Source of the DNA: a virus
Virus record (IMG/VR): IMGVR_UViG_3300024999_000180
Location: 1-44,270 of that record
Strand: one strand, 5' to 3'
Length of the DNA: 44,270 bases
The translations under genes and the position numbers were made by a program. The notes under the pieces were generated by a model. That model saw nothing but the letters and a program-made list of their open reading frames with translations, was not told the origin of the DNA and made no database searches. Shown piece after piece: positions 9,508-43,805 of this stretch (its first letter is position 1; each line of letters opens with the position of its first letter).

Positions 9508-10109
9508 TTCAATACAAAAAGTTTGCTGATTATGACGCTTATGTAAAAAAACAAGGAGGCAAAATCTCTTTCAGTTTAGATAAAATTAAAGAAAAGAATA
9601 GTAGTAGACGGATTAAGTTCGAATCGATTTTTAAGAAAGTAAAGAACGACTTTTTGAAGGGAAATATACTCTGTCTAGGAGCGCGTACAGGTTGTGAGGT
9701 AGTAGCGGCAAGAAATTTAGGTTATAAAAACTCATTAGGATTGGATTTATATCCTGTTGGTGATTTGGTAGTTGAAGGCGATTGGCATAAGATGTTATTC
9801 GGCCCCGATAGATTTGATAATGCTTTCTGCAATTCTCTTGATCATTGTTTTGATCTTCCTGTATTAGTTCAGGAGTTGAAAAATGTTCTTAAACCGAATG
9901 GAATTTTTTACTTTATGGTTATGAAAAAAATGGCCCTTTGTACTGTTGAGGGAAGTATTCCTGATCGGATGGCATCAAGGGCATATGATTCAATGTTTTG
10001 GGATACTGAGCAGGATATAATTGATGAGTTCCTTTCTTACGGTTTTGAATTGAAGAAAACATGGACCGACACCAAATGGTTTAATTGTATACTCCGGAAT
10101 ATCAAATGA
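9504..10109 (+). CDS. SAM-dependent methyltransferase (class I)
   Basis: 201 residues. After a basic N-terminal 50 residues come ILCLGARTGCEVVAAR (motif I, SAM-binding glycine loop), LGLDLYPV (acidic residue of motif II), FDNAFCNSLDH (motif IV region) and LKNVLKPNGIFYFMV (motif VI), the usual order for a Rossmann-fold methyltransferase of the Methyltransf_11 type. Within the cassette it probably methylates a sugar or similar small acceptor, but a protein or nucleic acid target is not excluded. Confidence 0.78.
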   Translation: MIQYKKFADYDAYVKKQGGKISFSLDKIKEKNSSRRIKFESIFKKVKNDFLKGNILCLGARTGCEVVAARNLGYKNSLGLDLYPVGDLVVEGDWHKMLFGPDRFDNAFCNSLDHCFDLPVLVQELKNVLKPNGIFYFMVMKKMALCTVEGSIPDRMASRAYDSMFWDTEQDIIDEFLSYGFELKKTWTDTKWFNCILRNIK

Positions 10110-11647
10110 TAAATATTGTCTGCTGGAAATGGAATCCTATTGAAGGAGTTCCCAATACAAAAAAGAATCAGAAATATGATTCCAGGCATGTAAATGCTTT
10201 GTATGAGATGCTTGTTCGCAATGTAACAATCCCTTTCCGGTTAATTTGTGTTACTGATGATTCAAAAGGAATCATCCCTGAAGTTGATATTATTCCGTTA
10301 TGGAATGAGTTTAGAGATAAGGGCGGTTGTTTCGTTCGACTTGTTTGTTTTAAGAAAGATTTCAAATTATTTGGGGAAAGATTTTGGTCAATTGACCTGG
10401 ATTGTTTGATTGTCGGGAATATTGATCATATATTGACTCGACAGGAAGATTTCTTGATTTGGGCTCCAGAAAGATCGAGGATTAGCAAACGAATTACCCC
10501 TTATTGTGGAAGTATGTTTATGTTAAAGGCTGGAAGTCATCCTGAAGTTTATGATTATTTTCGACCGAGTTCTTTTAATGTAAATAGACACAACCAATAT
10601 TTAGGTGGAACTGATCAGAAGCAAATTTCAAAAATGATTCAAAACGGAAAGACAATAGGGCAAGCAGAAGGGGTATACAATTTCATCCCTGACATTTCTA
10701 TTCGTGATAAAGTTCCTGAAAATGCTTGTATCTTGTTTTTTAATGGAAAGTTTCTTCCTGACAGTATTGGATTATTGAGGGAATTTCCATGGATTGGAGA
10801 ACATTATCCAGCAGCAGGAACAGGGGTCAATAGATATAAAAGGCATACCGAAGAAGATTTACTCAGAAGAGAAAGAGTTGCTGCAAACAGACAATTAAAG
10901 AAAGAAGGGATTAAGACACAAAAAGAATTGAAGCCAATAGATCCAAATCCATTAATTAATTTTATTATCTATTGGTGGGGGAATTGGCCGAATGGAAATT
11001 CCCAACTTGGAATTAATTATATAAACAAATTAGCAAAAGGAATTCAAAATAATATTCCGGTTGATTTGAGATACAAGATAGTTTTATTTACCGACGATGA
11101 AAACATTCAAATTGAAAATGTTGAAACAAGAAAATTGGATGTTCCGGTTGATTTGAAGTGGAATCTCAAAAAGATGTTTATGTATTCAAAACAAGCAAAT
11201 TTGGAAGGATATTCCATTTGTTTTGATTTGGATACAGTAATTACCGGAAGTTTAGAACCATTGATAAAAGCGACAATCGAAAACAAGAAACATATTATTA
11301 CATGCCAAGCGGCTTATAAACCAAAATGTATCGGTGGGAGTATTGTTGGATTTAAATCATGTGACAATCTTGAAAAACTTTTGTGGAATCCTATTCTGAA
11401 AAACAGAGATTTAATCGAGAGAAGAACAAAAGGTTCAGAGAGATTTTATTTCCAAATGGTATTGGGAATAAGGAAAGTTTCTTTCTGGGAAAATGTTATT
11501 CCAGGAAAAGTATTGTCATATAAACGAGACTGTAAAAATGGACTTCCTGTTGATTCTGCTATTGTTAGGTTTCATGGAAATCCTCGTCCTCATGAAGTAA
11601 GAGACGGATGGGTAAAAAGATATTGGATAGGTAAAAATGATGATTGA
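10106..11647 (+). CDS. Double-domain glycosyltransferase-like protein
   Basis: I use ATG 10106, which overlaps the upstream stop (ATGA), giving 513 residues. Two related GT-A-like domains follow each other. The first has FWSIDLDCLIVGNID near residue 95 and the second has SICFDLDTVITGSLEPL near 372; both DLD motifs sit before a G, as in the metal-sugar-nucleotide sites of GT8-like enzymes. Each domain starts with an aromatic-rich strand (IVCWKWN and IIYWWGNWPNG). A two-active-site polymerising or sequential transferase is plausible. It is the longest enzyme of the cassette. Confidence 0.75.
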   Translation: MINIVCWKWNPIEGVPNTKKNQKYDSRHVNALYEMLVRNVTIPFRLICVTDDSKGIIPEVDIIPLWNEFRDKGGCFVRLVCFKKDFKLFGERFWSIDLDCLIVGNIDHILTRQEDFLIWAPERSRISKRITPYCGSMFMLKAGSHPEVYDYFRPSSFNVNRHNQYLGGTDQKQISKMIQNGKTIGQAEGVYNFIPDISIRDKVPENACILFFNGKFLPDSIGLLREFPWIGEHYPAAGTGVNRYKRHTEEDLLRRERVAANRQLKKEGIKTQKELKPIDPNPLINFIIYWWGNWPNGNSQLGINYINKLAKGIQNNIPVDLRYKIVLFTDDENIQIENVETRKLDVPVDLKWNLKKMFMYSKQANLEGYSICFDLDTVITGSLEPLIKATIENKKHIITCQAAYKPKCIGGSIVGFKSCDNLEKLLWNPILKNRDLIERRTKGSERFYFQMVLGIRKVSFWENVIPGKVLSYKRDCKNGLPVDSAIVRFHGNPRPHEVRDGWVKRYWIGKNDD

Positions 11648-30981: not shown

Positions 30982-31713
30982 TTATTTTCCGTGTTGAGAT
31001 AAATATCGAATCTTATCCATAGTGACCATTTCATTGATATTAATCTTGTCAACATTGAGCTGATTTACAAGATCAAAGTATTGCTCATAGATATGCAACC
31101 CATCGCTGTAAGCGAAGATTGATCCATCAACAACGGGGAAATACCCGCAAATAGAATCAAGAACATAATCTTTTAATAACTGAAGACCACCTAAATTTTC
31201 GGGAAAACCAGAATAAAGATCCCATGACCGAAAATATAAGGTCATATTCAACTTTCCATTTACTACTTTGAAAGAAATTGAACGAAGGCAAGGAGGATCA
31301 GGCAAAAAAGTTGTTTCAGAATTTCCAATACAAATTGTTGCTTGATTTGTATTTCCTTTTGATACGATTAACAAATCTATTATTCTATCAATTTGTGTTG
31401 TAATAAATTCCCCATACGTATATTCTTCGTTCTCAGCTTTTTCTGATCCCATAATCTGATTCACAAAATAACTTTCAATTTTCTTTTCATCAGTAGGAGC
31501 AGGAATGCCTGCTGGAAGGATAGGGGCAAGTGGACGAGTTTCCGGATTGGTTATTGTGATGAAAACAGAATCAAGTTGTTTTCTGATCTGTCCTTCATAA
31601 CTTCCTTTTTCAACAACAAAATCATATCCGTTTTTAATACACAACCACATTGCGTCTCGCCACACTTCATTGATGTCATATCCACGAACACAATTGAAAT
31701 CAAAGTTTATCAT
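30982..31713 (-). CDS. Thymidylate synthase family protein (ThyA-like, archaeal-type)
   Basis: I use ATG 31713 (AAGAGGAATAAA upstream), giving 243 residues. DPPCLRSISFKV places the catalytic Cys at 142, FRSWD at 161-165 matches the phosphate/dUMP region, PENLGG gives Asn173, and LHIYE gives His207 and Tyr209, the usual nucleotide contacts. The PPCLR and YFRSWDLYSGFP wording is closest to archaeal-type ThyA. Asn in that position argues for dUMP, where dCMP hydroxymethylases have Asp. The enzyme makes dTMP, or by relation a 5-hydroxymethylated uridylate for modified phage DNA; the sequence cannot separate these. Confidence 0.8.
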   Translation of the reverse strand: MINFDFNCVRGYDINEVWRDAMWLCIKNGYDFVVEKGSYEGQIRKQLDSVFITITNPETRPLAPILPAGIPAPTDEKKIESYFVNQIMGSEKAENEEYTYGEFITTQIDRIIDLLIVSKGNTNQATICIGNSETTFLPDPPCLRSISFKVVNGKLNMTLYFRSWDLYSGFPENLGGLQLLKDYVLDSICGYFPVVDGSIFAYSDGLHIYEQYFDLVNQLNVDKININEMVTMDKIRYLSQHGK

Positions 31714-31714
31714 T

Positions 31715-32074
31715 TTATTCCTCTTTAAATAGATTTTCAAGAAATCGACGTAATGAACGATTTGCAACAATTTCCCTTACTTCTTCTGAATAATTAATAT
31801 CAATTTCATCATTTCCTTCAATATCTTTATGGCATTTATCTAATGCTTCTTTTATTCTTCTAATTTTATCAGCATTAGAACTTGAATTACTTATATCATT
31901 AAGATGTCTTGAAGCTATTTTTAAAGATTCTAACCTGCTTTTATTTTCAATATCTTTTATTTCTTGAGTTTTGTGAATATAATCATCACATGATTTATGA
32001 ATATGAATGCTGCATGCTCCTTCATATTCAACATCATTATTCCAACATTTTTCATTATCACAATCTGGTTTCAT
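31715..32074 (-). CDS. Unknown charged helical protein with Cys/His N-terminus
   Basis: 119 residues. The N-terminus (CDNEKCWNN, then CSIHIHKSC) holds four cysteines and two histidines, a likely zinc site; the rest is charged helix (LESLKIASRHL, IRRIKEALDKCHKDI). ATG 32074 follows GTGAGGAAGT. It ends one base before the ThyA-like gene start, so both may be made together. No family is recognised. Confidence 0.5.
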   Translation of the reverse strand: MKPDCDNEKCWNNDVEYEGACSIHIHKSCDDYIHKTQEIKDIENKSRLESLKIASRHLNDISNSSSNADKIRRIKEALDKCHKDIEGNDEIDINYSEEVREIVANRSLRRFLENLFKEE

Positions 32075-33497: not shown

Positions 33498-33853
33498 TGT
33501 TGATTCATCTCCTTTAAAGATACCAGTTCTTGATACCAATTTTCCAATACTTTAAACAATTCAGGATGACTTGAAAGTATTCTTCTTCTTTTTCTTAATG
33601 TTTCCCAAAGTAATACTTGAACTTCTTTCCAAGTTGCTGGAATTTTCTTTTCAAAATCTTCTGTTTTGTTGTTCTTGTTTCGTTCGTTGTATTCTCGTTC
33701 TGATGTTTTCCAGCCTTCGATCCAAATTTCTTTTTTCTTTGGATTGTTCTTTACCCAAAGTGGGATGCATGATTCCATTTTTCTACCTGGAAAGAAGTGA
33801 TAATGACCGTTGTTGAAAATTTCTCTTTGATTCGACATAGGATTTATTTTCAT
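33494..33853 (-). CDS. Unknown Lys/Arg-rich protein
   Basis: 119 residues, with Trp and Tyr scattered through charged helix and an ETLRKRRRILSSHPELF segment. The ATG overlaps the stop of the SbcC-like C-terminal half (ATGA) behind GAGGAGG, so it should be translated with it. No known motif. Its link to the recombination genes is by position only. Confidence 0.55.
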   Translation of the reverse strand: MKINPMSNQREIFNNGHYHFFPGRKMESCIPLWVKNNPKKKEIWIEGWKTSEREYNERNKNNKTEDFEKKIPATWKEVQVLLWETLRKRRRILSSHPELFKVLENWYQELVSLKEMNQQ

Positions 33854-34500
33854 TTTAACCTCCTCACTTTTGTTTTCCTTCCGGTCATTGAAAACTCATA
33901 AACACAATCACCAACCTCAAGTAGTTCTTCTCGACTTGCCCTTTCGTCGGCAATCATTATGATCTGTAGTCCTGGCCAGTTTTGTTTCGGTTTCGGCTTG
34001 CAAATTTCAGAAAGAATCATCAATGCCCTTCTGTTTGCTTCTGCTCCCTTCAAATGTTTAAATGGTTCATCCAACCAAATACTGGCTCTGGATTTGGGGA
34101 TTTTCATCGACCATAGAGCAGGACGCAAAGCCATTCCAGCGATGTCTACAGGACCAAGACCAGTGCTTGCCTTTGGATCTATTTTTTCCCCATCGCGAAC
34201 AAACCAAAAATCAACTTCAGTAGTATTCCTTCTAATTTCAATCTGCACGTCGAATTGATAAGGATCGTCAAAAACAGTAGAAAGAGCAAGCTGAGGAAGT
34301 TCTGAGAGTTGATACTTCAATTCGTTTTGGGTCTGCTGAGAACAGATTTGAATTAGAGCATGTGCCTTTTCAGCGTCTTTGTGTTCTCCTCTCAATTTTC
34401 GAAATTCAAGTTTAGCTGAGGACAGTTGCTTTTTTAATTCGTTCTGAGCACCAACTAGATTGTTGTATTTGGCACGAAAGCCTTCAGTTTTCGAATTCAT
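33850..34500 (-). CDS. C-terminal half of a split SbcC/Rad50-like ATPase
   Basis: 216 residues. About 1-70 is charged coiled coil; TVFDDPYQF starts the C-terminal lobe; STGLGPVDIAGMALR (112-126) is the ABC signature region; IWLDEPF (141-147) is Walker B with the catalytic Glu; IADERAS near 183 sits where the switch region should be. No Walker A is present here: it is in the protein ending at 36704. The two halves would need to associate to form one ATPase head. The preceding 82-residue coil gene overlaps by 17 bases. Confidence 0.8.
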   Translation of the reverse strand: MNSKTEGFRAKYNNLVGAQNELKKQLSSAKLEFRKLRGEHKDAEKAHALIQICSQQTQNELKYQLSELPQLALSTVFDDPYQFDVQIEIRRNTTEVDFWFVRDGEKIDPKASTGLGPVDIAGMALRPALWSMKIPKSRASIWLDEPFKHLKGAEANRRALMILSEICKPKPKQNWPGLQIIMIADERASREELLEVGDCVYEFSMTGRKTKVRRLK

Positions 34501-34732
34501 TCAGTTTATCCTCAATTTCTTCAAGAAGAGAATCAAGAGTTTCTTCCAACTGTTCCTTTTCTTTTCCTTTCTTCTTTAAAAATTCTTCAATCTGATCTGA
34601 ATCGGTTATTCCGTATGAGGAAAGTTGTTGTTCAAGCTGCCTGATTTCTCCACTTAGACTTGATTGCTCTAACTGGAGTTCATCCAGGCGTTTTGTTATT
34701 TTCTGAATTTGTGGTTGATAGTTTGTTTTCAT
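34484..34732 (-). CDS. Small coiled-coil protein, possible returning coil of split Rad50-like complex
   Basis: 82 residues that are almost pure heptad coiled coil (LDELQLEQSSLSGEIRQLEQQL, and a C-terminal EQLEETLDSLLEEIEDKL run). The ATG overlaps the upstream stop (ATGA) and the end overlaps the SbcC-like C-half start. In full-length Rad50 the second coil runs back from the hook to the C-terminal lobe; this protein is the right size and place to add to that coil. Such a function is inference. Confidence 0.6.
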   Translation of the reverse strand: MKTNYQPQIQKITKRLDELQLEQSSLSGEIRQLEQQLSSYGITDSDQIEEFLKKKGKEKEQLEETLDSLLEEIEDKLNEFEN

Positions 34733-35145
34733 ATAAATCCTTTATCTATTGCAAGCCATTCCGGAATAATAATTCGAACTAAACCATTTTGAAGAGTTTC
34801 ATATTCATCTTCTAATTGAGATTTTGGAATCCATTCTTCTGTAGTTCCGTCAGAAACTTTAATTGCCCTTTCCGTTTCTGCTATTAATTCAACGTCAAAT
34901 TCAGCATAATTTTTGTCGGTAGATTGAAGTATTTTCATTTCTGGGAGTCCTTTATGTCTTCTTAGTTGTTTGATATATTCTATTTCTTTTTCTGATACAG
35001 CTTTTCTCTGATTTTCAATATCTCTTTTCAACTTTTCTTCTAAACACTTTTTGTGTATGGGATGGTTTTCAAAATATGTCAATTGTTTTTGATATACTCT
35101 ATCTTTGCATTCTAAACAATATACATAATCCCAACCAACCTTCAT
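34729..35145 (-). CDS. Unknown protein with N-terminal zinc-like motif
   Basis: I use ATG 35145 (AAAGGTGAG upstream) instead of GTG 35154. The 138-residue product has YCLECKDRVYQ and IHKKCLEEK at the N-terminus (a CxxC and a later Cys), then basic helix and a strand-rich, acidic C-terminus with IPKSQLEDEYETL. Possibly a nucleic-acid-binding zinc protein. It lies in the split SbcC region, by position a candidate partner. Confidence 0.5.
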   Translation of the reverse strand: MKVGWDYVYCLECKDRVYQKQLTYFENHPIHKKCLEEKLKRDIENQRKAVSEKEIEYIKQLRRHKGLPEMKILQSTDKNYAEFDVELIAETERAIKVSDGTTEEWIPKSQLEDEYETLQNGLVRIIIPEWLAIDKGFI

Positions 35146-35146
35146 T

Positions 35147-35341
35147 TTACTCACCTTTCAAAAAAAGAATAGGTTTTCCACAAATAGGACAGAATGAAGT
35201 TTGATAAATTTTCTTTTTCTCCATTCCCCATACCTTACCGCAACCAGTATTGTAATAGTTATAGTAAAGCCCCATTTGTCTTTTGAATCTCCATTTACAA
35301 TATCTTTTCGGGAAGAGAAAGTCTTTTATGAATTTGAACAT
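35147..35341 (-). CDS. Zinc-ribbon-like microprotein
   Basis: 64 residues: a basic N-terminal helix, then a C at residues 15 and 34 and FCPICGKPILFL near 50, the CxxC half of a zinc ribbon. ATG 35341 overlaps the previous gene's end. It is another member of the tiny Cys-rich group. No function is proposed. Confidence 0.55.
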   Translation of the reverse strand: MFKFIKDFLFPKRYCKWRFKRQMGLYYNYYNTGCGKVWGMEKKKIYQTSFCPICGKPILFLKGE

Positions 35342-35565
35342 ATTTCCTCCTGTTGTGGTTTTGATTCATAATTCAACTTGATTTCTTTTTCTACTTGCTG
35401 ATAAATCCTGTCTTGTTCTCTTCTTCGTTTCTTTACGGTTTCGATCTGTTTGAGTGCTGCTGGCCAATTATTTCTACCAAGAAATTCCCTGAGGAGTTGA
35501 TCAACAAATTCAAGATTGTTTTTCTTCAAAAGGTCGATACATTTATTGTTTGGTATTTGTTCCAT
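35326..35565 (-). CDS. Small helical protein next to the Mre11-like gene
   Basis: 79 residues of charged helix (IDLLKKNNLEFVDQLLREFLGRNNWPAALKQIE). It overlaps the Mre11-like stop by 23 bases at its start, so translation is probably linked. No motif; a partner of the nuclease is possible. Confidence 0.5.
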   Translation of the reverse strand: MEQIPNNKCIDLLKKNNLEFVDQLLREFLGRNNWPAALKQIETVKKRRREQDRIYQQVEKEIKLNYESKPQQEEICSNS

Positions 35566-36499
35566 CGTAGTAACTCCATACCTTATCTATTATACGTTGA
35601 TTTACTTTATTCTTTAAAAGAAATTGTTCAAGGTTCTTTTCGAAGTTGATTCCTTCTACCACTTGTTGTCCCAATTTTTCTACAAAAGCAGAAAGTCTTA
35701 TTTCTTTTTCCTCTGCTTTTTCAAGGTGTTCACGGGAAAGTACATTTTGTTCAATCGGAATAAATTTCTTTTCTACTCGACATTCTTCAGGATACCAAAG
35801 AAAAACACATGGTCTATGTTCTATCTGATCAGCATCATTCCTCATTAAACTTCCAGCATTGACCAAGATTGTATTTTTTCTCTGTCCCGTAAAAGTTTGA
35901 TGGTTGTCTCCTGTTACAATCAGATCGAAATTTGGAAACTTTTTCAGTACTTCATTCTTCTCCCAACCTTCACAACCAGGGAAGGGAGGGTTTCTGTCAT
36001 ATATCATTCCGTGAAAGAGGACTACTTTGTAATCAATTTTACAGTCAATTTTAGGAAATTCGTTTGGTTCTTTTAATTCTTGTCCGTATGGTATTTTGTG
36101 AATATAAACAATTTTATCTTTTATTTTTACAATACTATTATCAATTCCTGAAATAATTCCTGCTGATTCCAAAACAGACATAGATGAATTATGGTAATTT
36201 TCCATTGTTTTTCCGGGCAAATCATGATTCCCTGGAATAGTAAAAAATGGGGTTGGTAAATTTTTAATTGCCCATTGGAGAAGGAAATGAGATGGATATT
36301 GTTTATATCTTTTGTCGAATAAATCTCCGCCATCAAATATAGGACATTGAAGACTTTCAGATAAATCCTTCAACCACTTTATTTTTCGTTGTAATGCTTC
36401 CCAGTAGTTATCAATTCTGGAAACAGGGGAGTACATTCTCAATTCGATATCAGCCGTTATTATCGCACTGGGGATCGATTTATTATTTGATCGTTTCAT
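35543..36499 (-). CDS. Mre11/SbcD-like metallophosphatase nuclease
   Basis: 318 residues of the calcineurin-like family: IITADIEL at residues 13-20 (motif I), FDGGDLFD at 55-62, IPGNHDLPG at 88-96, FHGMIYD near 163 and TGDNHQTF at 196-203 follow the usual order for SbcD/gp47 proteins. Motif I has Glu (D17-x-E19) where the family has His, so metal binding may differ. C-terminal 80 residues are helical, as in the capping part that binds Rad50. Works with the split ATPase halves on each side to process DNA ends. Confidence 0.8.
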   Translation of the reverse strand: MKRSNNKSIPSAIITADIELRMYSPVSRIDNYWEALQRKIKWLKDLSESLQCPIFDGGDLFDKRYKQYPSHFLLQWAIKNLPTPFFTIPGNHDLPGKTMENYHNSSMSVLESAGIISGIDNSIVKIKDKIVYIHKIPYGQELKEPNEFPKIDCKIDYKVVLFHGMIYDRNPPFPGCEGWEKNEVLKKFPNFDLIVTGDNHQTFTGQRKNTILVNAGSLMRNDADQIEHRPCVFLWYPEECRVEKKFIPIEQNVLSREHLEKAEEKEIRLSAFVEKLGQQVVEGINFEKNLEQFLLKNKVNQRIIDKVWSYYDGTNTKQ

Positions 36500-36704
36500 G
36501 ATAACTTATTTTTAAAATAATATTTTTTGTTGGACTAGCAACAAATTGTTTATATCCGGTTATGTTGTTTTCGTCACATACTTCTTTAACTTCTCTTGAA
36601 AATTCCAATGAGCTACCTTCTATTATATTTTCTTTTATGATTGTAATAATATTTTGAAGTTGTTTTAATAAAATCAAATTTTGTTTTTTTATTTTCATAT
36701 TCAT
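36483..36704 (-). CDS. Small unknown helical protein
   Basis: 73 residues from ATG 36704, which overlaps the stop of the SbcC-like N-half (TGATG). Sequence is helical and mixed (LILLKQLQNIITIIKENI then SREVKEVCDENN). It ends inside the Mre11-like gene start. No motif. Lies between the two subunits of the complex. Confidence 0.5.
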   Translation of the reverse strand: MNMKIKKQNLILLKQLQNIITIIKENIIEGSSLEFSREVKEVCDENNITGYKQFVASPTKNIILKISYHETIK

Positions 36705-37771
36705 CAATGTTCATCACAATTCTCTTCTATTGATTTTCCACAAGTTGGGCAATTTTTTGGAATATTTAATTTCTCTGTTTCAATCTGCTTTTTCAAATAT
36801 TCCCTTTTGTTCAAACAGGATTGGATCTTTTTCTTGATTTCAAAAACTGCTGTATATTCAGAATTAACAGATTGGAATAGAATTTGCTTTTCTTTTATTC
36901 TGTCAATCAGCTTTTCAACTTTTACTAATTCTTTTCCTTTTTTGGAAAGTTCTTTTTTTCTTTCTAATTCGTTAAAAATAGTCGAGACGTTACTTATATC
37001 ACGTTTTATATTATCAAACGAATTTGACGTGGTTTCGGCTTCAAGAAATTGATTTTTAATCTCAGGTAAGTTTCTATATTTTTCTATCTCTACCCTTTTT
37101 CTTTCCAACTGATTTTGAATTCTCATTACTCCGGAAATTACAGAGTTCAAATTGATGATCATTCTTTCTGCTTCTTCACACTGGTTCAGAAGATTATTTA
37201 CAGTCGGAAGGTTTACATATTTTTCTAATTTTGTTTCAAGCGATTCAATTATATTTTTCTGATTTCCTTTTTCTTGATTCAGGGATTGGACATCTCTTTT
37301 AGCGGCAGAAAGAGTACTGTCGATGGAATCAAGCCCAACTATTTTGTTTAAAATCCTTCCCCGTTGTCCAGAAGTATCAAACATCAAGAAAGCTCTATCA
37401 ATTTGAGATTGGAAGTTGGTTTCTTCCATGTTGAAAACAGCGGATATTTCTTCAGGAACATCTCTTCCGGCGTTGAATTCTCTTTTTGTTTCTCCTTCGA
37501 TCAAAACATATTTGTTTACTGTTCCACTTTTTATCCTTTGGACTTCTTCACCCGTATCAAAAAACATCTTTACGTTTGTTTCTCCTTCCCAGAATAGCGG
37601 AAGCATGTCTTTTCCTAAAGGGGTATTCGTTCGTGCAAAATTGAAAGCACGAAAAGCTCCTGATTTACCTCTGTCTGATTCTCCGATAAAAACTGTAAGA
37701 CCCGGCGTGGGAAAATTTAGGATAGTTCTTTTATGAGATTCGTAATTCCTGATTTCGATTTTGGTTATCAT
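36704..37771 (-). CDS. N-terminal half of a split SbcC/Rad50-like ATPase with zinc hook
   Basis: 355 residues: ITKIEIRNYESHK and IGESDRGKSG at 29-38 give the ABC N-lobe with Walker A. From about 135 to 335 it is coiled coil, and it ends with CPTCGKSIEEN, the CxxC zinc hook at 341-344, fifteen residues before its stop. A whole Rad50/SbcC or gp46 continues through a second coil to signature and Walker B; here those are in the gene ending at 33850. Likely pairs with the Mre11-like product. The stop overlaps the next gene. Confidence 0.82.
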   Translation of the reverse strand: MITKIEIRNYESHKRTILNFPTPGLTVFIGESDRGKSGAFRAFNFARTNTPLGKDMLPLFWEGETNVKMFFDTGEEVQRIKSGTVNKYVLIEGETKREFNAGRDVPEEISAVFNMEETNFQSQIDRAFLMFDTSGQRGRILNKIVGLDSIDSTLSAAKRDVQSLNQEKGNQKNIIESLETKLEKYVNLPTVNNLLNQCEEAERMIINLNSVISGVMRIQNQLERKRVEIEKYRNLPEIKNQFLEAETTSNSFDNIKRDISNVSTIFNELERKKELSKKGKELVKVEKLIDRIKEKQILFQSVNSEYTAVFEIKKKIQSCLNKREYLKKQIETEKLNIPKNCPTCGKSIEENCDEH

Positions 37772-38298
37772 AATTGCTTCCGTCTCGCATATTCAGCAAT
37801 CAATATTCCATCAGCATCAGGTTTACAAGGAACATTCGGAAATAACCTTTTCCCGATTGATAGGCTTGCTTTTTTCAATTGATCTGTTCCTTTCAATCCT
37901 GACGGAAGCATTACTTTTTGCCATTCTTTGCTGTCGATATATTGTTTTGAAATATCCAACAATTCAAGAACATTTAATGTTGTTTCAAGTGCTCTCGATG
38001 CTGAAATTGATGCTTGAAATCTTGTAGGGTTTACCATCGGCCTTTCAAGAAAAACAGATAATTGATTTTTCTTTATCATAACTTCAAAGAAACATTTCAA
38101 TTCTCTGAAATCAATACGGGAAATATTTCCTTTTGTTTTGGTATAGTTTTGTTCTGAAAAGATAGGGATTTTTATTTGTCCAAATATGTGGTTTCCGTTT
38201 TCATATCCACTCCAGCCGATTGTTCCGGAAACTCCGTTATCTATCCCAATATATATTTTATTTGCAGTAGTAAAGGCAGGGGCTTTTTGTCGTTTCAT
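37768..38298 (-). CDS. RuvC-like Holliday junction resolvase
   Basis: 176 residues with an RNase H-like fold pattern: IYIGIDNGVSGTIGW places Asp20, SVFLERPMV places Glu85, and CKPDADGILIAEYA places Asp161 and Asp163, the acidic set of RuvC-type nucleases. Would resolve branched DNA before packaging. It overlaps the SbcC-like N-half gene by four bases (ATGA). Confidence 0.82.
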   Translation of the reverse strand: MKRQKAPAFTTANKIYIGIDNGVSGTIGWSGYENGNHIFGQIKIPIFSEQNYTKTKGNISRIDFRELKCFFEVMIKKNQLSVFLERPMVNPTRFQASISASRALETTLNVLELLDISKQYIDSKEWQKVMLPSGLKGTDQLKKASLSIGKRLFPNVPCKPDADGILIAEYARRKQL

Positions 38299-39010: not shown

Positions 39011-40177
39011 TTAATACCTTGATTTTCTGTTTAATAAAAGGGAATCTTCAATTTGATTCCAGACTTTTTGAACAACCCTTTTCAATTTTGATTCAAGTCC
39101 TAATTCTTCTATCTTTCTTACCAGTTTGTCTTTTCCATTTTCTCTCAAGTCAAGTTCAGGAGCTTCTATCCAAGAACCGCTTTCCCAATACTTTTCTTTT
39201 AGAAGATAATCCACCATCGCCCCATTGTCGTCAATCCCCAAGTCATAATAAATTGGGAATACAACTTCACGAAGTTTTCCAGTCACGCTATTTTTTTCAA
39301 TTTTAGCTTTTGTTTTAACTCCAATTTGTATCCCTCCTTCTTTTTTGTTTTTAAGCGTTTCAATTTTTGTCAACCAAGGGCGAACATGAGAATAAAAATA
39401 TGGGGCTTCCCCTCCAGAAATTTTCCATGGAGATTGTCCTGGCATAGTAGCTCCGGAATTTTGACGAAGTTGCTGTACCATAATGAAAATTGAATTTGTT
39501 TCTGCCACCAACTTTTTTGTCATTCTAAGAATTTGACCAAGGATTTTGGCTTTTTCCATATGAAAACTTCCTTTTATTTTTATCTTGTCGTCTTCTGTTT
39601 TTGCTCTTTCCAAAGCGGTTTTTAATGATTTTTCTAATTCTTCATCAGTAGTATAAGCGTCCATACTATCTGATATATAGATAAATGGCTTTCCCTTTTT
39701 AGATAATATGGTCATTCGACTTTCAAGCTGTTGAATTGTATTACTAATTCCTGTGTTTTCATAATTTGATTCTAATTCGCTGTAAAGAATCCCAGATGGG
39801 GTTTTTAATCGTTTTACTAAAGGGGGGAACAATTTGCTCATATTAAAATCACATCTTCTTTCGACATCATCATAATATAAATCGTATTCATCAAAAAATG
39901 GATTATTACAAGCTTCTGAAAAACTCGATAAAATCAAAATAGTCTTTCCTGAAGAACTACCTCCAGGCATTGAAGATATTCTTCCACACGGCCAACCTTT
40001 TTTTATATTATCGGTCATGGCTAAATTTACCATCGAACATCCAGTAGAGAGAAAATGTTGATATTCTTTCTCCGCTTCTCTTCTATTCCTGATTCGTTGT
40101 TTCATCTGGTTGACCAGTGGTTGTTCCTGATTCGATTCCTGATTGTTGAATTTCGTTCGTTGCCGTCTTTCCACCAT
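39011..40177 (-). CDS. RecA/UvsX-like recombinase
   Basis: 388 residues from ATG 40177 (GAGGTAT upstream). GRISSMPGGSSSGKTILIL gives Walker A at 72-79; a YDLYYDDVE segment near 97; FIYISDSMD near 176 is Walker B; IFIMVQQLRQNSG near 233 is the region after the nucleotide site. It resembles phage UvsX/RadA-like enzymes more than host RecA. It forms filaments on single-stranded DNA for strand exchange. Its start overlaps the HTH gene by 95 bases. Confidence 0.85.
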   Translation of the reverse strand: MVERRQRTKFNNQESNQEQPLVNQMKQRIRNRREAEKEYQHFLSTGCSMVNLAMTDNIKKGWPCGRISSMPGGSSSGKTILILSSFSEACNNPFFDEYDLYYDDVERRCDFNMSKLFPPLVKRLKTPSGILYSELESNYENTGISNTIQQLESRMTILSKKGKPFIYISDSMDAYTTDEELEKSLKTALERAKTEDDKIKIKGSFHMEKAKILGQILRMTKKLVAETNSIFIMVQQLRQNSGATMPGQSPWKISGGEAPYFYSHVRPWLTKIETLKNKKEGGIQIGVKTKAKIEKNSVTGKLREVVFPIYYDLGIDDNGAMVDYLLKEKYWESGSWIEAPELDLRENGKDKLVRKIEELGLESKLKRVVQKVWNQIEDSLLLNRKSRY

Positions 40178-40419: not shown

Positions 40420-41499
40420 TTAAAAAGGTATATCTTCTCCAGTTGATCTTCTGTTTCTTTTCACAGACTTTTTCGATTCTGCTTCTAATCGATCTTTTTC
40501 ATCTCGACAATCATCCCATTTGTCACAGGAATCACATTCATCTTCAGTATCGTTGTCTTTCCCGAAGATGAATCCTGAGGGACATTCATTGTCGTCTTCT
40601 TTTTGCTTTCTGGTTGATGTTTTCTCCTGAGGTTCATCCTCAGGTTCATCCTTTTTTGCAGGCTTCCTTGTTTGTTTTTTTGTATTTTTTGGTTTTTCTT
40701 CCTCCTCTTCAGGTTTATCTTCGGTTCCGTCTTCCAACTCAAAGAATTTCTTTTCCATTTCTTCCGGTGTCAAAATTCTCAGGGCAGCATCAAGATCAAC
40801 CGCTTCTTCCAAAATACTTGCGTCCAAATCATCCCTTTCTTCAAAGTCGATCCTGGCGATTTCTGCAAACTTCCGGCCTTGAAAAGATCCTTCTGAAAAA
40901 CGAGCCTTGATTGACAATCCGTTTTCAAAATCTCCATAGAATCGATCATCAAAATCAGCAGATTGAACCCTGTCCTCATCATCCAACATAAAGCCGAATT
41001 GATGGGGAGAAACTTCATATAGTTGAATCCCTTTATCTTCGTCTTCGTGATCGAGAAGATTGAACAGTTGACGCTGTTTCGGTTTTAAACTTTCGGCCAG
41101 TTCTTTGTCTTCTCCTTTCTTGATGAGTTTTTCCCTATATTCACAAATAGGACACTTTTTATAAGGACTCTGAGCTGTCTTTTTCAAACAGATGAACCGC
41201 TTGGTATCGTCTCCAACACCAACAACGTGCTGCCAGTATGTACATTCATGCCACAATTCATGAGGAGTTTGAAATGGGTGGTTGTCGATTGAAACAACAT
41301 AAGGGATAATCGAAAAATGATTTTTGCCTTTGTCCCCTCTGCCCTTTTTGGGCTTGAAAAATTCAATGTCTTGAGGAAGATTCTGAAGTGTATCTAATCC
41401 ACCTCCACTTCTCTCCCTGGTTTGCGCTGCTTGCCTGGCTTTGTCCCGGATAGATTGACGATCCTTCTTTCCTGGACGTTCTCTTTCGCGTCTTGTCAT
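40420..41499 (-). CDS. gp32-like single-stranded DNA binding protein
   Basis: I use ATG 41499, with AAAAGGAAC nine bases upstream, giving 359 residues. There is a basic N-terminus, a strand-rich core with HELWHECTYWQHVVG and KKCPICEYREKL (Cys/His zinc site as in T4 gp32), a long acidic linker rich in Glu, Lys and Pro, a second Cys cluster (CPSGFI, then CDSCDKW) and the terminal EDIPF tip typical of SSBs. Binds and protects single-stranded DNA and recruits partners through the tail. The hexamer array upstream is in frame but starts with TTG and no ribosome site. Confidence 0.85.
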   Translation of the reverse strand: MTRRERERPGKKDRQSIRDKARQAAQTRERSGGGLDTLQNLPQDIEFFKPKKGRGDKGKNHFSIIPYVVSIDNHPFQTPHELWHECTYWQHVVGVGDDTKRFICLKKTAQSPYKKCPICEYREKLIKKGEDKELAESLKPKQRQLFNLLDHEDEDKGIQLYEVSPHQFGFMLDDEDRVQSADFDDRFYGDFENGLSIKARFSEGSFQGRKFAEIARIDFEERDDLDASILEEAVDLDAALRILTPEEMEKKFFELEDGTEDKPEEEEEKPKNTKKQTRKPAKKDEPEDEPQEKTSTRKQKEDDNECPSGFIFGKDNDTEDECDSCDKWDDCRDEKDRLEAESKKSVKRNRRSTGEDIPF

Positions 41500-41536
41500 T
41501 TTTTTTGTTCCTTTTAGTTGATTAGTTGTATATTTT

Positions 41537-41728
41537 TGACCCTGACCATGACCATGACCTTGACCATGACTTTGACCTTGACCATGACCTTGACCATGAC
41601 TTTGACCATGACCATGACCTTGACCATGACCTTGACCCTGACCATGACCTTGACCCTGACCCTGACCATGACCATGACCTTGACCATGACCTTGACCCTG
41701 ACCATGACCCTGACCCTGACCATGACCA
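41537..41728. repeat. 32-copy hexanucleotide tandem array (TGACCN)
   Basis: Thirty-two uninterrupted 6-base units, TGACC plus A, T or C (twice TGACTT), run from 41537 to 41728, followed by TGACTG. Position six is never G. Units twelve to eighteen and twenty-two to twenty-eight read the same at position six (A A T A T C A), so there is a 60-base higher-order period. Every frame of the tract is open. It lies just upstream of the SSB gene and could be an origin or protein-binding array, or a slippage tract. Confidence 0.9.
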
Positions 41729-41763
41729 TGACTGATCAAAACCAGTTCTTAAAATGGCTTGAT

Positions 41764-42872: not shown

Positions 42873-43805
42873 TCAAAAAGATTGTATTGATTCATAGCAA
42901 GCCATCAACAAATCGTCGTTAACATTGTCGTAAAAAGGTCTGCGGAATGCGTCCATAATGACGTAGGCTTGTGGGTTGTCTTCTTTGAGTAGAATAGTTC
43001 TGCAATATGACAAAACGAGTTTTCTAATTCCTTCTGCTTCTCCTTTTGGAAGTCCTTTTAAAATCTTTGTAATTGTTAGCCATGAAGCTGGTTTCAACAA
43101 TGCCCGACATAAATCAATTCCTTGAGTTTCGGTTTCGACGTTTTGTTTTGCCGCTCTTAACATTTGTCTTTCGGGAAGATCGATAATCTTTTCCAGAATT
43201 GTAAGCGCTGTCCTTGGCCTTCCCTGACTGTCTTTTGCTATTTGAGTCAATACCTCTTCCGGTATTTCTTTTTCTTCCGATTTTGATACTTTGTTCAACA
43301 GATATACAATTTGCTTTTCAGTCAATGGTTTCAATTCATACTGCAAGCAACGGTCTCGAACTGTTTTCAAAAGCCGCTGTGGATCAGTTGTGCAGAGAAA
43401 AAAATAAACATAGGAAGGAGGTTCTTCGAGAGCCTTTAAAATCGCATTTTGAGGCTTGTTTTTCTCACTGTCGCCACCTTCTCCGAGCATGTGGGCCTCA
43501 TCAATAATCCAACCACGATTACCACCAGATAATCCTTTGCTTGACATTTTTCTGCGGATGTTTTTAATCTGCTCAATATTTCCGAACTGAGCAGAATCTA
43601 ATTCAATAAGATTATGGCCGAAACATCTAGCTAGATTTGCCGATATTCGTGCGATGGTGGTCTTCCCACAGCCTCTTGGGCCGGTGAAAAGAAAGGCATG
43701 ATTTGGGTTCTTTTTAGAAAGATTGCCTTTCAGACTTTCGACAACTGTCTGATTTCCAATAAAGTCTTCAAAACAATTCGGCCTATAGTCTGTATGAAAT
43801 GGCAT
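42873..43805 (-). CDS. Clamp loader ATPase (AAA+; gp44 / DnaX-like)
   Basis: 310 residues: YRPNCFEDFIGNQ at the start, TGPRGCGKTTIAR at 41-53 (Walker A), WIIDEAHML at 99-107 (Walker B), LCTTDPQRLLKTVRDRCLQ giving sensor 1 and the Arg-rich SRC-like box, and a C-terminal helical collar. This is the typical order of AAA+ sliding-clamp loader subunits. It loads the clamp for the phage polymerase. ATG 43805 has no Shine-Dalgarno sequence before it. No second loader subunit was seen in the window. Confidence 0.88.
   Translation of the reverse strand: MPFHTDYRPNCFEDFIGNQTVVESLKGNLSKKNPNHAFLFTGPRGCGKTTIARISANLARCFGHNLIELDSAQFGNIEQIKNIRRKMSSKGLSGGNRGWIIDEAHMLGEGGDSEKNKPQNAILKALEEPPSYVYFFLCTTDPQRLLKTVRDRCLQYELKPLTEKQIVYLLNKVSKSEEKEIPEEVLTQIAKDSQGRPRTALTILEKIIDLPERQMLRAAKQNVETETQGIDLCRALLKPASWLTITKILKGLPKGEAEGIRKLVLSYCRTILLKEDNPQAYVIMDAFRRPFYDNVNDDLLMACYESIQSF

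Follow-up and report, generated by a model that had tools for sequence, protein, structure and literature searches.

In phage DNA of 44,270 nucleotides, positions 1 to 44,270 of IMG/VR record IMGVR_UViG_3300024999_000180 (hereafter the window), an SbcC/Rad50-type ATPase is divided between two minus-strand genes that do not overlap each other, and an Mre11-like gene and a gene for an 82-residue coiled-coil protein lie between them. The cluster very probably specifies a functional Mre11-Rad50 (SbcD-SbcC) complex in which Rad50 consists of several chains. In textbook accounts Rad50 and SbcC are each a single chain, in which the ATPase head and zinc hook are believed to communicate through a continuous arm. 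The split is not confined to the window phage: it is widespread in phages and forms a recA-linked operon in Bacillota chromosomes. No description of a naturally split Rad50/SbcC was found in the open-access literature, and one may exist elsewhere. The genes of the window cluster, with the evidence for each open reading frame (ORF), are as follows (dN/dS, ratio of nonsynonymous to synonymous substitution rates; pLDDT, predicted local distance difference test score; L001, nearest relative).

36704..37771, minus strand: Rad50/SbcC N-terminal half, 355 residues (ORF call, Pfam, PHROGs, AlphaFold pLDDT 86, Rad50 crystal matches, dN/dS 0.075)
36483..36707, minus strand: small ORF, 74 residues, TTG start (ORF call; without family match in Pfam and PHROGs; not encountered in the relatives examined)
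35543..36499, minus strand: Mre11/SbcD-like nuclease, 318 residues (Pfam, PHROGs, metal motifs)
35326..35565, minus strand: small gene, 79 residues, no role assigned (kept in L001)
35147..35341, minus strand: small Cys-rich protein, 64 residues, no role assigned (kept in L001)
34729..35154, minus strand: ORF of 141 residues, no role assigned (L001 counterpart is two ORFs of 72 and 69 residues)
34484..34732, minus strand: coiled-coil subunit, 82 residues (family in 184 of 193 split loci; iterated profile E 4e-9; dN/dS 0.029)
33850..34500, minus strand: Rad50/SbcC C-terminal half, 216 residues (PHROGs, AlphaFold pLDDT 94.9, Rad50 crystal matches, dN/dS 0.033)

A first-pass annotation had given ORF positions for this cluster, all of which were confirmed, and had described the genes as overlapping; the junctions, when read, show that neighbouring genes, all in a single direction, share between a few and about 23 bases. 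The N-terminal half (N-half) contains the N-lobe of the ATPase head with the Walker A motif GESDRGKS and the Q-loop, a helical arm (residues 148-336), and the zinc-hook motif CPTC at residues 341-344. Walker A had been correctly placed in this product, and the chain does end soon after the hook, with 11 residues following the last Cys rather than the fifteen stated earlier. The signature region (STGLGPVD..ALR) and Walker B (IWLDEP, D144-E145) reside, as that annotation said, in the separate C-terminal half (C-half), which begins with a helix at residues 2-76 forming a short return coil, also has a D-loop, and carries Asp185 in place of the H-loop His. The Mre11-like protein contains the metal motifs D17-x-E19, D59, N91-H92, H163, and D198-x-H200, in which the His of motif I is replaced by Glu and the first His of motif V by Asp, every position still being a plausible metal ligand. 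In the coil protein, two predicted helical stretches flank a conserved G-I-T-D-type turn. As for the 141-residue ORF, about one base at the junction decides between a single frame and the two overlapping ORFs of L001, and the difference may be a real fusion or a sequence error.

Profile databases recognise the pieces separately. The N-half matches Pfam AAA_23, phrog_16465 ('exonuclease'), and phrog_77 (SbcC), the C-half matches phrog_15167 ('ATPase', a 211-residue family), and the Mre11-like product matches Pfam Metallophos and phrog_100 (SbcD). These PHROGs families are unconnected to one another, Pfam gave nothing beyond the generic AAA and Metallophos domains for the cluster proteins, and no specific NCBIfam model passed by any of them was found.

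The structures predicted by AlphaFold enabled us to compare the two halves with known Rad50 heads. The C-half (pLDDT 94.9) is modelled as the helix at residues 2-76 followed by a head lobe, and the N-half (pLDDT 86, predicted template modelling score 0.48) as a head lobe, four helices, and the hook. Foldseek searches against the PDB placed the N-terminal Rad50 chains of Pyrococcus furiosus (P. furiosus) crystals (1f2u_A/C, 1f2t_A, 1ii8_A, 3qkr_A, and 9a9j_A) at the top for the N-half, and the C-terminal chains of the same entries (1f2u_B/D, 1f2t_B, 1ii8_B, 3qkr_B, and 9a9j_B) at the top for the C-half; sequence-profile searches agreed for both halves. The two proteins match complementary chains of the same crystals, and therefore the natural division corresponds to the one that crystallographers introduced into the Rad50 head. 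The engineered two-chain forms, namely the P. furiosus catalytic-domain crystals and the human split Rad50-FKBP, share this N/C division of the head, whereas the present one is natural and has an additional coil subunit. Human Rad50 produced as separate N and C halves forms a purifiable complex, which activates ATM once dimerised (PMC3642328).

To survey the split, alignment-based scans collected 79 viral loci with a C-half, 52 with an N-half, and the best 80 of 110 genome loci, and every ORF in these loci was classified by profiles. The titles of those best 80 genome loci all name Bacillota, the phylum in which chromosomes were searched in depth. The split set was found in more than 190 loci, comprising IMG/VR phages, Bacillus phage vB_BboS-125, and Bacillota chromosomes including isolate and complete genomes. 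In all but one of the 193 loci holding both halves, N and C lie in separate frames, the sole exception, L130, being an SbcC-like protein of the ordinary single-chain sort. Close IMG/VR relatives (L001/L005, L002, and L003) have the same layout as the window, with C-half identities of 62-96%. Viruses arrange the genes as N-M-C or N-C-M (M, Mre11); the order M-N-C is that of chromosomes, where Mre11, Rad50-N, coil, and Rad50-C form a tight operon. An apparent intein-like insert in Walker A (begins GKC, ends HN-ST) enlarges one N-half to 785 residues (L066:3197-5554).

Among named phages, tblastn of the window proteins gave no match at a strict cut-off, and a looser cut-off matched vB_BboS-125 and Microbacterium phage Magritte. 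The genes gp32-gp35 of vB_BboS-125 comprise an N-half (gp32) that ends in CPLC plus nine residues, an AP2 protein, a 78-residue coil, and a C-half (gp35), followed by an unannotated Mre11. Its record labels these products 'exonuclease', 'hypothetical protein', and 'ATPase' or 'chromosome segregation protein' and does not mention a split Rad50. Magritte was dropped as an example; two genes at the opposite end of its record, annotated as ASCE ATPase and nuclease, appear by eye to encode a clamp-like and a Cas4-like protein rather than the absent N-half and Mre11.

Could the window simply hold a decaying or mis-assembled single-chain sbcC gene interrupted by insertions? Homing-endonuclease-like (AP2/HNH) ORFs do lie between the parts in L001 and vB_BboS-125. 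Against this, the same split occurs in phages and in chromosomes, complete genomes included, and the hook lies consistently within a few to about 40 residues of the N-half end across loci. The dN/dS values against L001 are 0.075 for N, 0.064 for Mre11, 0.029 for the coil, and 0.033 for C, values that indicate purifying selection on each of the four window genes. Residues G30, G35, K36, S37, and Q123 are near-invariant over about 200 N-half sequences, the hook cysteines C341 and C344 are invariant in 87 aligned N-halves, and in the C-half G114, G116, D144, and E145 are near-invariant, the signature being a G-x-G variant. In a tree of both head lobes, one 99% branch separates all split proteins from the single-chain SbcC sampled, as judged by a quick method with long branches present. 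Decay is ruled out by these conservation data, and we consider the whole explanation to have next to no chance of being correct. The stable split favoured by the first-pass annotation, with Mre11 and a coil gene in between, is borne out by its recurrence in more than 190 loci and by dN/dS of 0.03-0.08. The two outcomes that the annotation had named as fatal did not materialise: assembly error is excluded because relatives, isolate genomes among them, are split as well, and the only close relatives with N and C on one chain are three hookless Mre11-N-C fusions nested within the group. The AP2/HNH genes among the split-set parts (L001:6199-6768 and L007:5584-6156) may have brought about the original split or later gene insertions.

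The three fusions (L225, L226, and L227) are single chains of 684-700 residues that join Mre11 to the two head lobes, N and C, and have neither arm nor hook, and they look like re-fusions since they are nested inside the split group. Each may be regarded as a minimal Mre11-Rad50 protein. Furthermore, Mre11 is fused to N in four viral loci (L046, L074, L079, and L129), and L079 has its C-half in an ORF of its own some 1 kb further downstream, beyond the coil gene. An Mre11/Rad50 fusion has been described in Bacillus phage 0305phi8-36 and in Mimivirus R555, and the Bacillus phage protein was noted to lack one segment of the SbcC P-loop NTPase, without a report of the lost half as a separate gene (PMC3175470). 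That protein resembles the Mre11+Rad50-N fusion of L079.

The active sites of Mre11 and of the C-half vary together. The H-loop His occurs in every one of the 80 chromosomal sequences and, among viral ones, in 92 of about 126; in the window clade it is Asp, and chromosomal Mre11 copies have canonical metal motifs. All 25 viral loci with Glu in Mre11 motif I have GLG instead of GGG in the C-half signature and Asp instead of His in the H-loop. Such a joint change fits one machine. Another viral subgroup of 29 loci combines Asn to Gln in Mre11 motif III with His to Asp in motif V, and keeps GGG and the H-loop His.

It is very improbable, in our judgement, that the two halves serve different machines, with C acting alone or with another partner and N working separately with Mre11. 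A few loci yielded only one half, e.g. Magritte, where a C-half-like gene is present and no N-half was found in the stretches examined; many such loci are fragments. Each half lacks the motifs present in the other, both match complementary chains of one crystal, Mre11, N, and C are fused on one chain in three genomes, and the linkage in chromosomes is strict, all of which speaks for a single Mre11-Rad50 complex.

In Bacillota chromosomes, recA lies upstream in 65 of 73 and the RNase Y gene (rny) downstream in 61 of 69 loci with enough flank, and recX is sometimes present; the recA-rny site of the operon is a core-genome position. Among 398 Bacillota genomes drawn evenly across the phylum, 66 have the split-type C-half, 166 have canonical SbcC, and 2 have both versus 27.5 expected (Fisher p 1e-14, a value inflated by genome relatedness, with only the two best SbcC candidates per genome scored). 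When 25 SbcC candidates per genome were scored, full-length SbcC was not seen in 15 of 18 Bacillota genomes with the split set. Within the class Bacilli, 29 of 200 genomes have the set. The split set thus seems to stand in for canonical SbcCD in Bacillota, and most sampled genomes that have it would score as SbcC-less, yet carry the set adjoining recA.

The coil gene was traced with a profile trained on chromosomal coil genes only. At E<0.01, this first round picked up 33 viral ORFs directly next to the C-half, plus 11 more, mostly within the cluster, with no match to the long N-arms. The window coil protein scored E 0.024 in this round and 4e-9 after iteration. The iterated profile, which is partly circular, the first round being the independent test, found a coil gene in 184 of 193 loci holding N and C; among its 211 matches, 3 lie elsewhere and 18 in the helix of C chains. 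The coil also has the lowest dN/dS of the four genes against L001. The small unnamed coil protein is therefore a candidate fourth subunit.

The arms of the N-halves fall into discrete length groups of 134-149, 175-194, 212-213, 225-250, 286-293, and 335-338 residues. Prolines in them recur 47 residues apart (26 pairs versus 2.1 expected, with a contribution from shared ancestry). The coil protein keeps a length of about 80 residues at every arm length from about 134 to 338 residues (Spearman 0.09, p 0.25). The first-pass annotation had proposed that the coil gene could supply part of the returning arm; the association with the split Rad50 stands, and a full arm is probably not what it supplies. 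Since coil length does not scale with arm length, the coil protein and the C-half helix are unlikely to form the complete return arm in long-armed members. These data suggest that N-arms are built of helical modules of about 47 residues, without a return strand of equal length. Such modules may run in a zigzag, associate with the second N-arm, or remain unpaired. A tentative extension, which we rate as possible and somewhat short of an even chance, is a four-subunit recA-linked Mre11-Rad50 whose arm is formed by the N-half alone, from modules of about 47 residues that come and go as complete units, with the hook at the tip. Such an arm might associate with its counterpart on the other N-half or double back on itself, capped or braced by the coil protein, and would differ from the usual antiparallel coiled coil.

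For the complex as a whole, we propose that the N-half (Walker A, Q-loop, arm, and CxxC hook) and the C-half (short coil, signature, and Walker B) would join non-covalently into one ABC-type head, and that two heads and two Mre11 chains would form an ATP-gated DNA-end nuclease. The coiled-coil protein of about 80 residues would be the fourth subunit, probably packing on the arm or the arm root. In the phage, the complex probably processes DNA ends for UvsX-driven recombination and replication, like T4 gp46/gp47, and in Bacillota the same set adjoining recA seems to replace canonical SbcCD. Zinc-hook dimerisation, nuclease action, and the part played by the coil protein are what we infer from these features.

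Compared with single-chain SbcCD/Mre11-Rad50, the split set shares the head motifs, the CxxC zinc hook, the helical arm, the Mre11 partner, and the profile and fold matches of both halves. Rad50 there is one chain with an antiparallel return arm, whereas N, coil, and C are separate genes here in nearly all loci. The split-set signature is GGG/GLG-VD instead of the usual SGG type, and the H-loop His is missing from the window C-half. Some points weigh against a functional multi-chain complex: the association of the separate chains is what we infer; the membership of the coil gene rests on linkage, conservation, and the profile that is partly circular after iteration; and with the H-loop His changed to Asp and an Mre11 ligand His to Glu, activity in the window clade may differ from that of the family. 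The window complex may work differently in detail because both active sites changed together. A natural, conserved complex without covalent arm continuity would mean that this continuity is dispensable, and would offer a ready-made system for probing arm function.

The window cluster lies beside genes with predicted replication and recombination functions.

37768..38298, minus strand: Holliday junction resolvase-like, just upstream of the N-half (phrog_1770, E 3e-9)
39011..40177, minus strand: UvsX/RecA-like recombinase (RecA match; phrog_97 UvsX-like, E 2e-35)
40420..41739, minus strand: weakly matched as a gp32-like single-strand DNA-binding protein (PF08804, E 2e-5, narrowly missing the curated cut-off)
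42873..43805, minus strand: DNA polymerase clamp loader (phrog_5846, E 2e-59)

By analogy with T4, the phage complex probably acts as a resection engine of the gp46/47 type next to UvsX, serving recombination-dependent replication as well as repair. The likeness to gp46/gp47 consists of a phage Rad50/Mre11 pair near UvsX, single-strand DNA-binding-like, and clamp-loader genes; the PHROG matches here are to SbcC/SbcD-like families. T4 gp46 is one chain, whereas the window Rad50 is split. A defence or counter-defence system (Lamassu/LmuB-like or AriA-like) in place of a repair nuclease is suggested by weak partial matches of the PADLOC LmuB and AriA profiles to N and C, but these matches are generic to the SMC/Rad50 family. 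The chromosomal copies keep to one site, between recA and rny, and hardly ever share a genome with SbcC, and the phage copy sits amid replication and recombination genes. We therefore reject the defence identity, which has in our view only a slight probability.

Elsewhere in the window, positions 30982-31770 encode a distant thymidylate synthase-like protein (PF00303, E 2.5e-7, C-terminal part only), and positions 10085-11647, amid structural genes, encode a 520-residue protein with a glycosyltransferase-like C-terminal part (phrog_1962).

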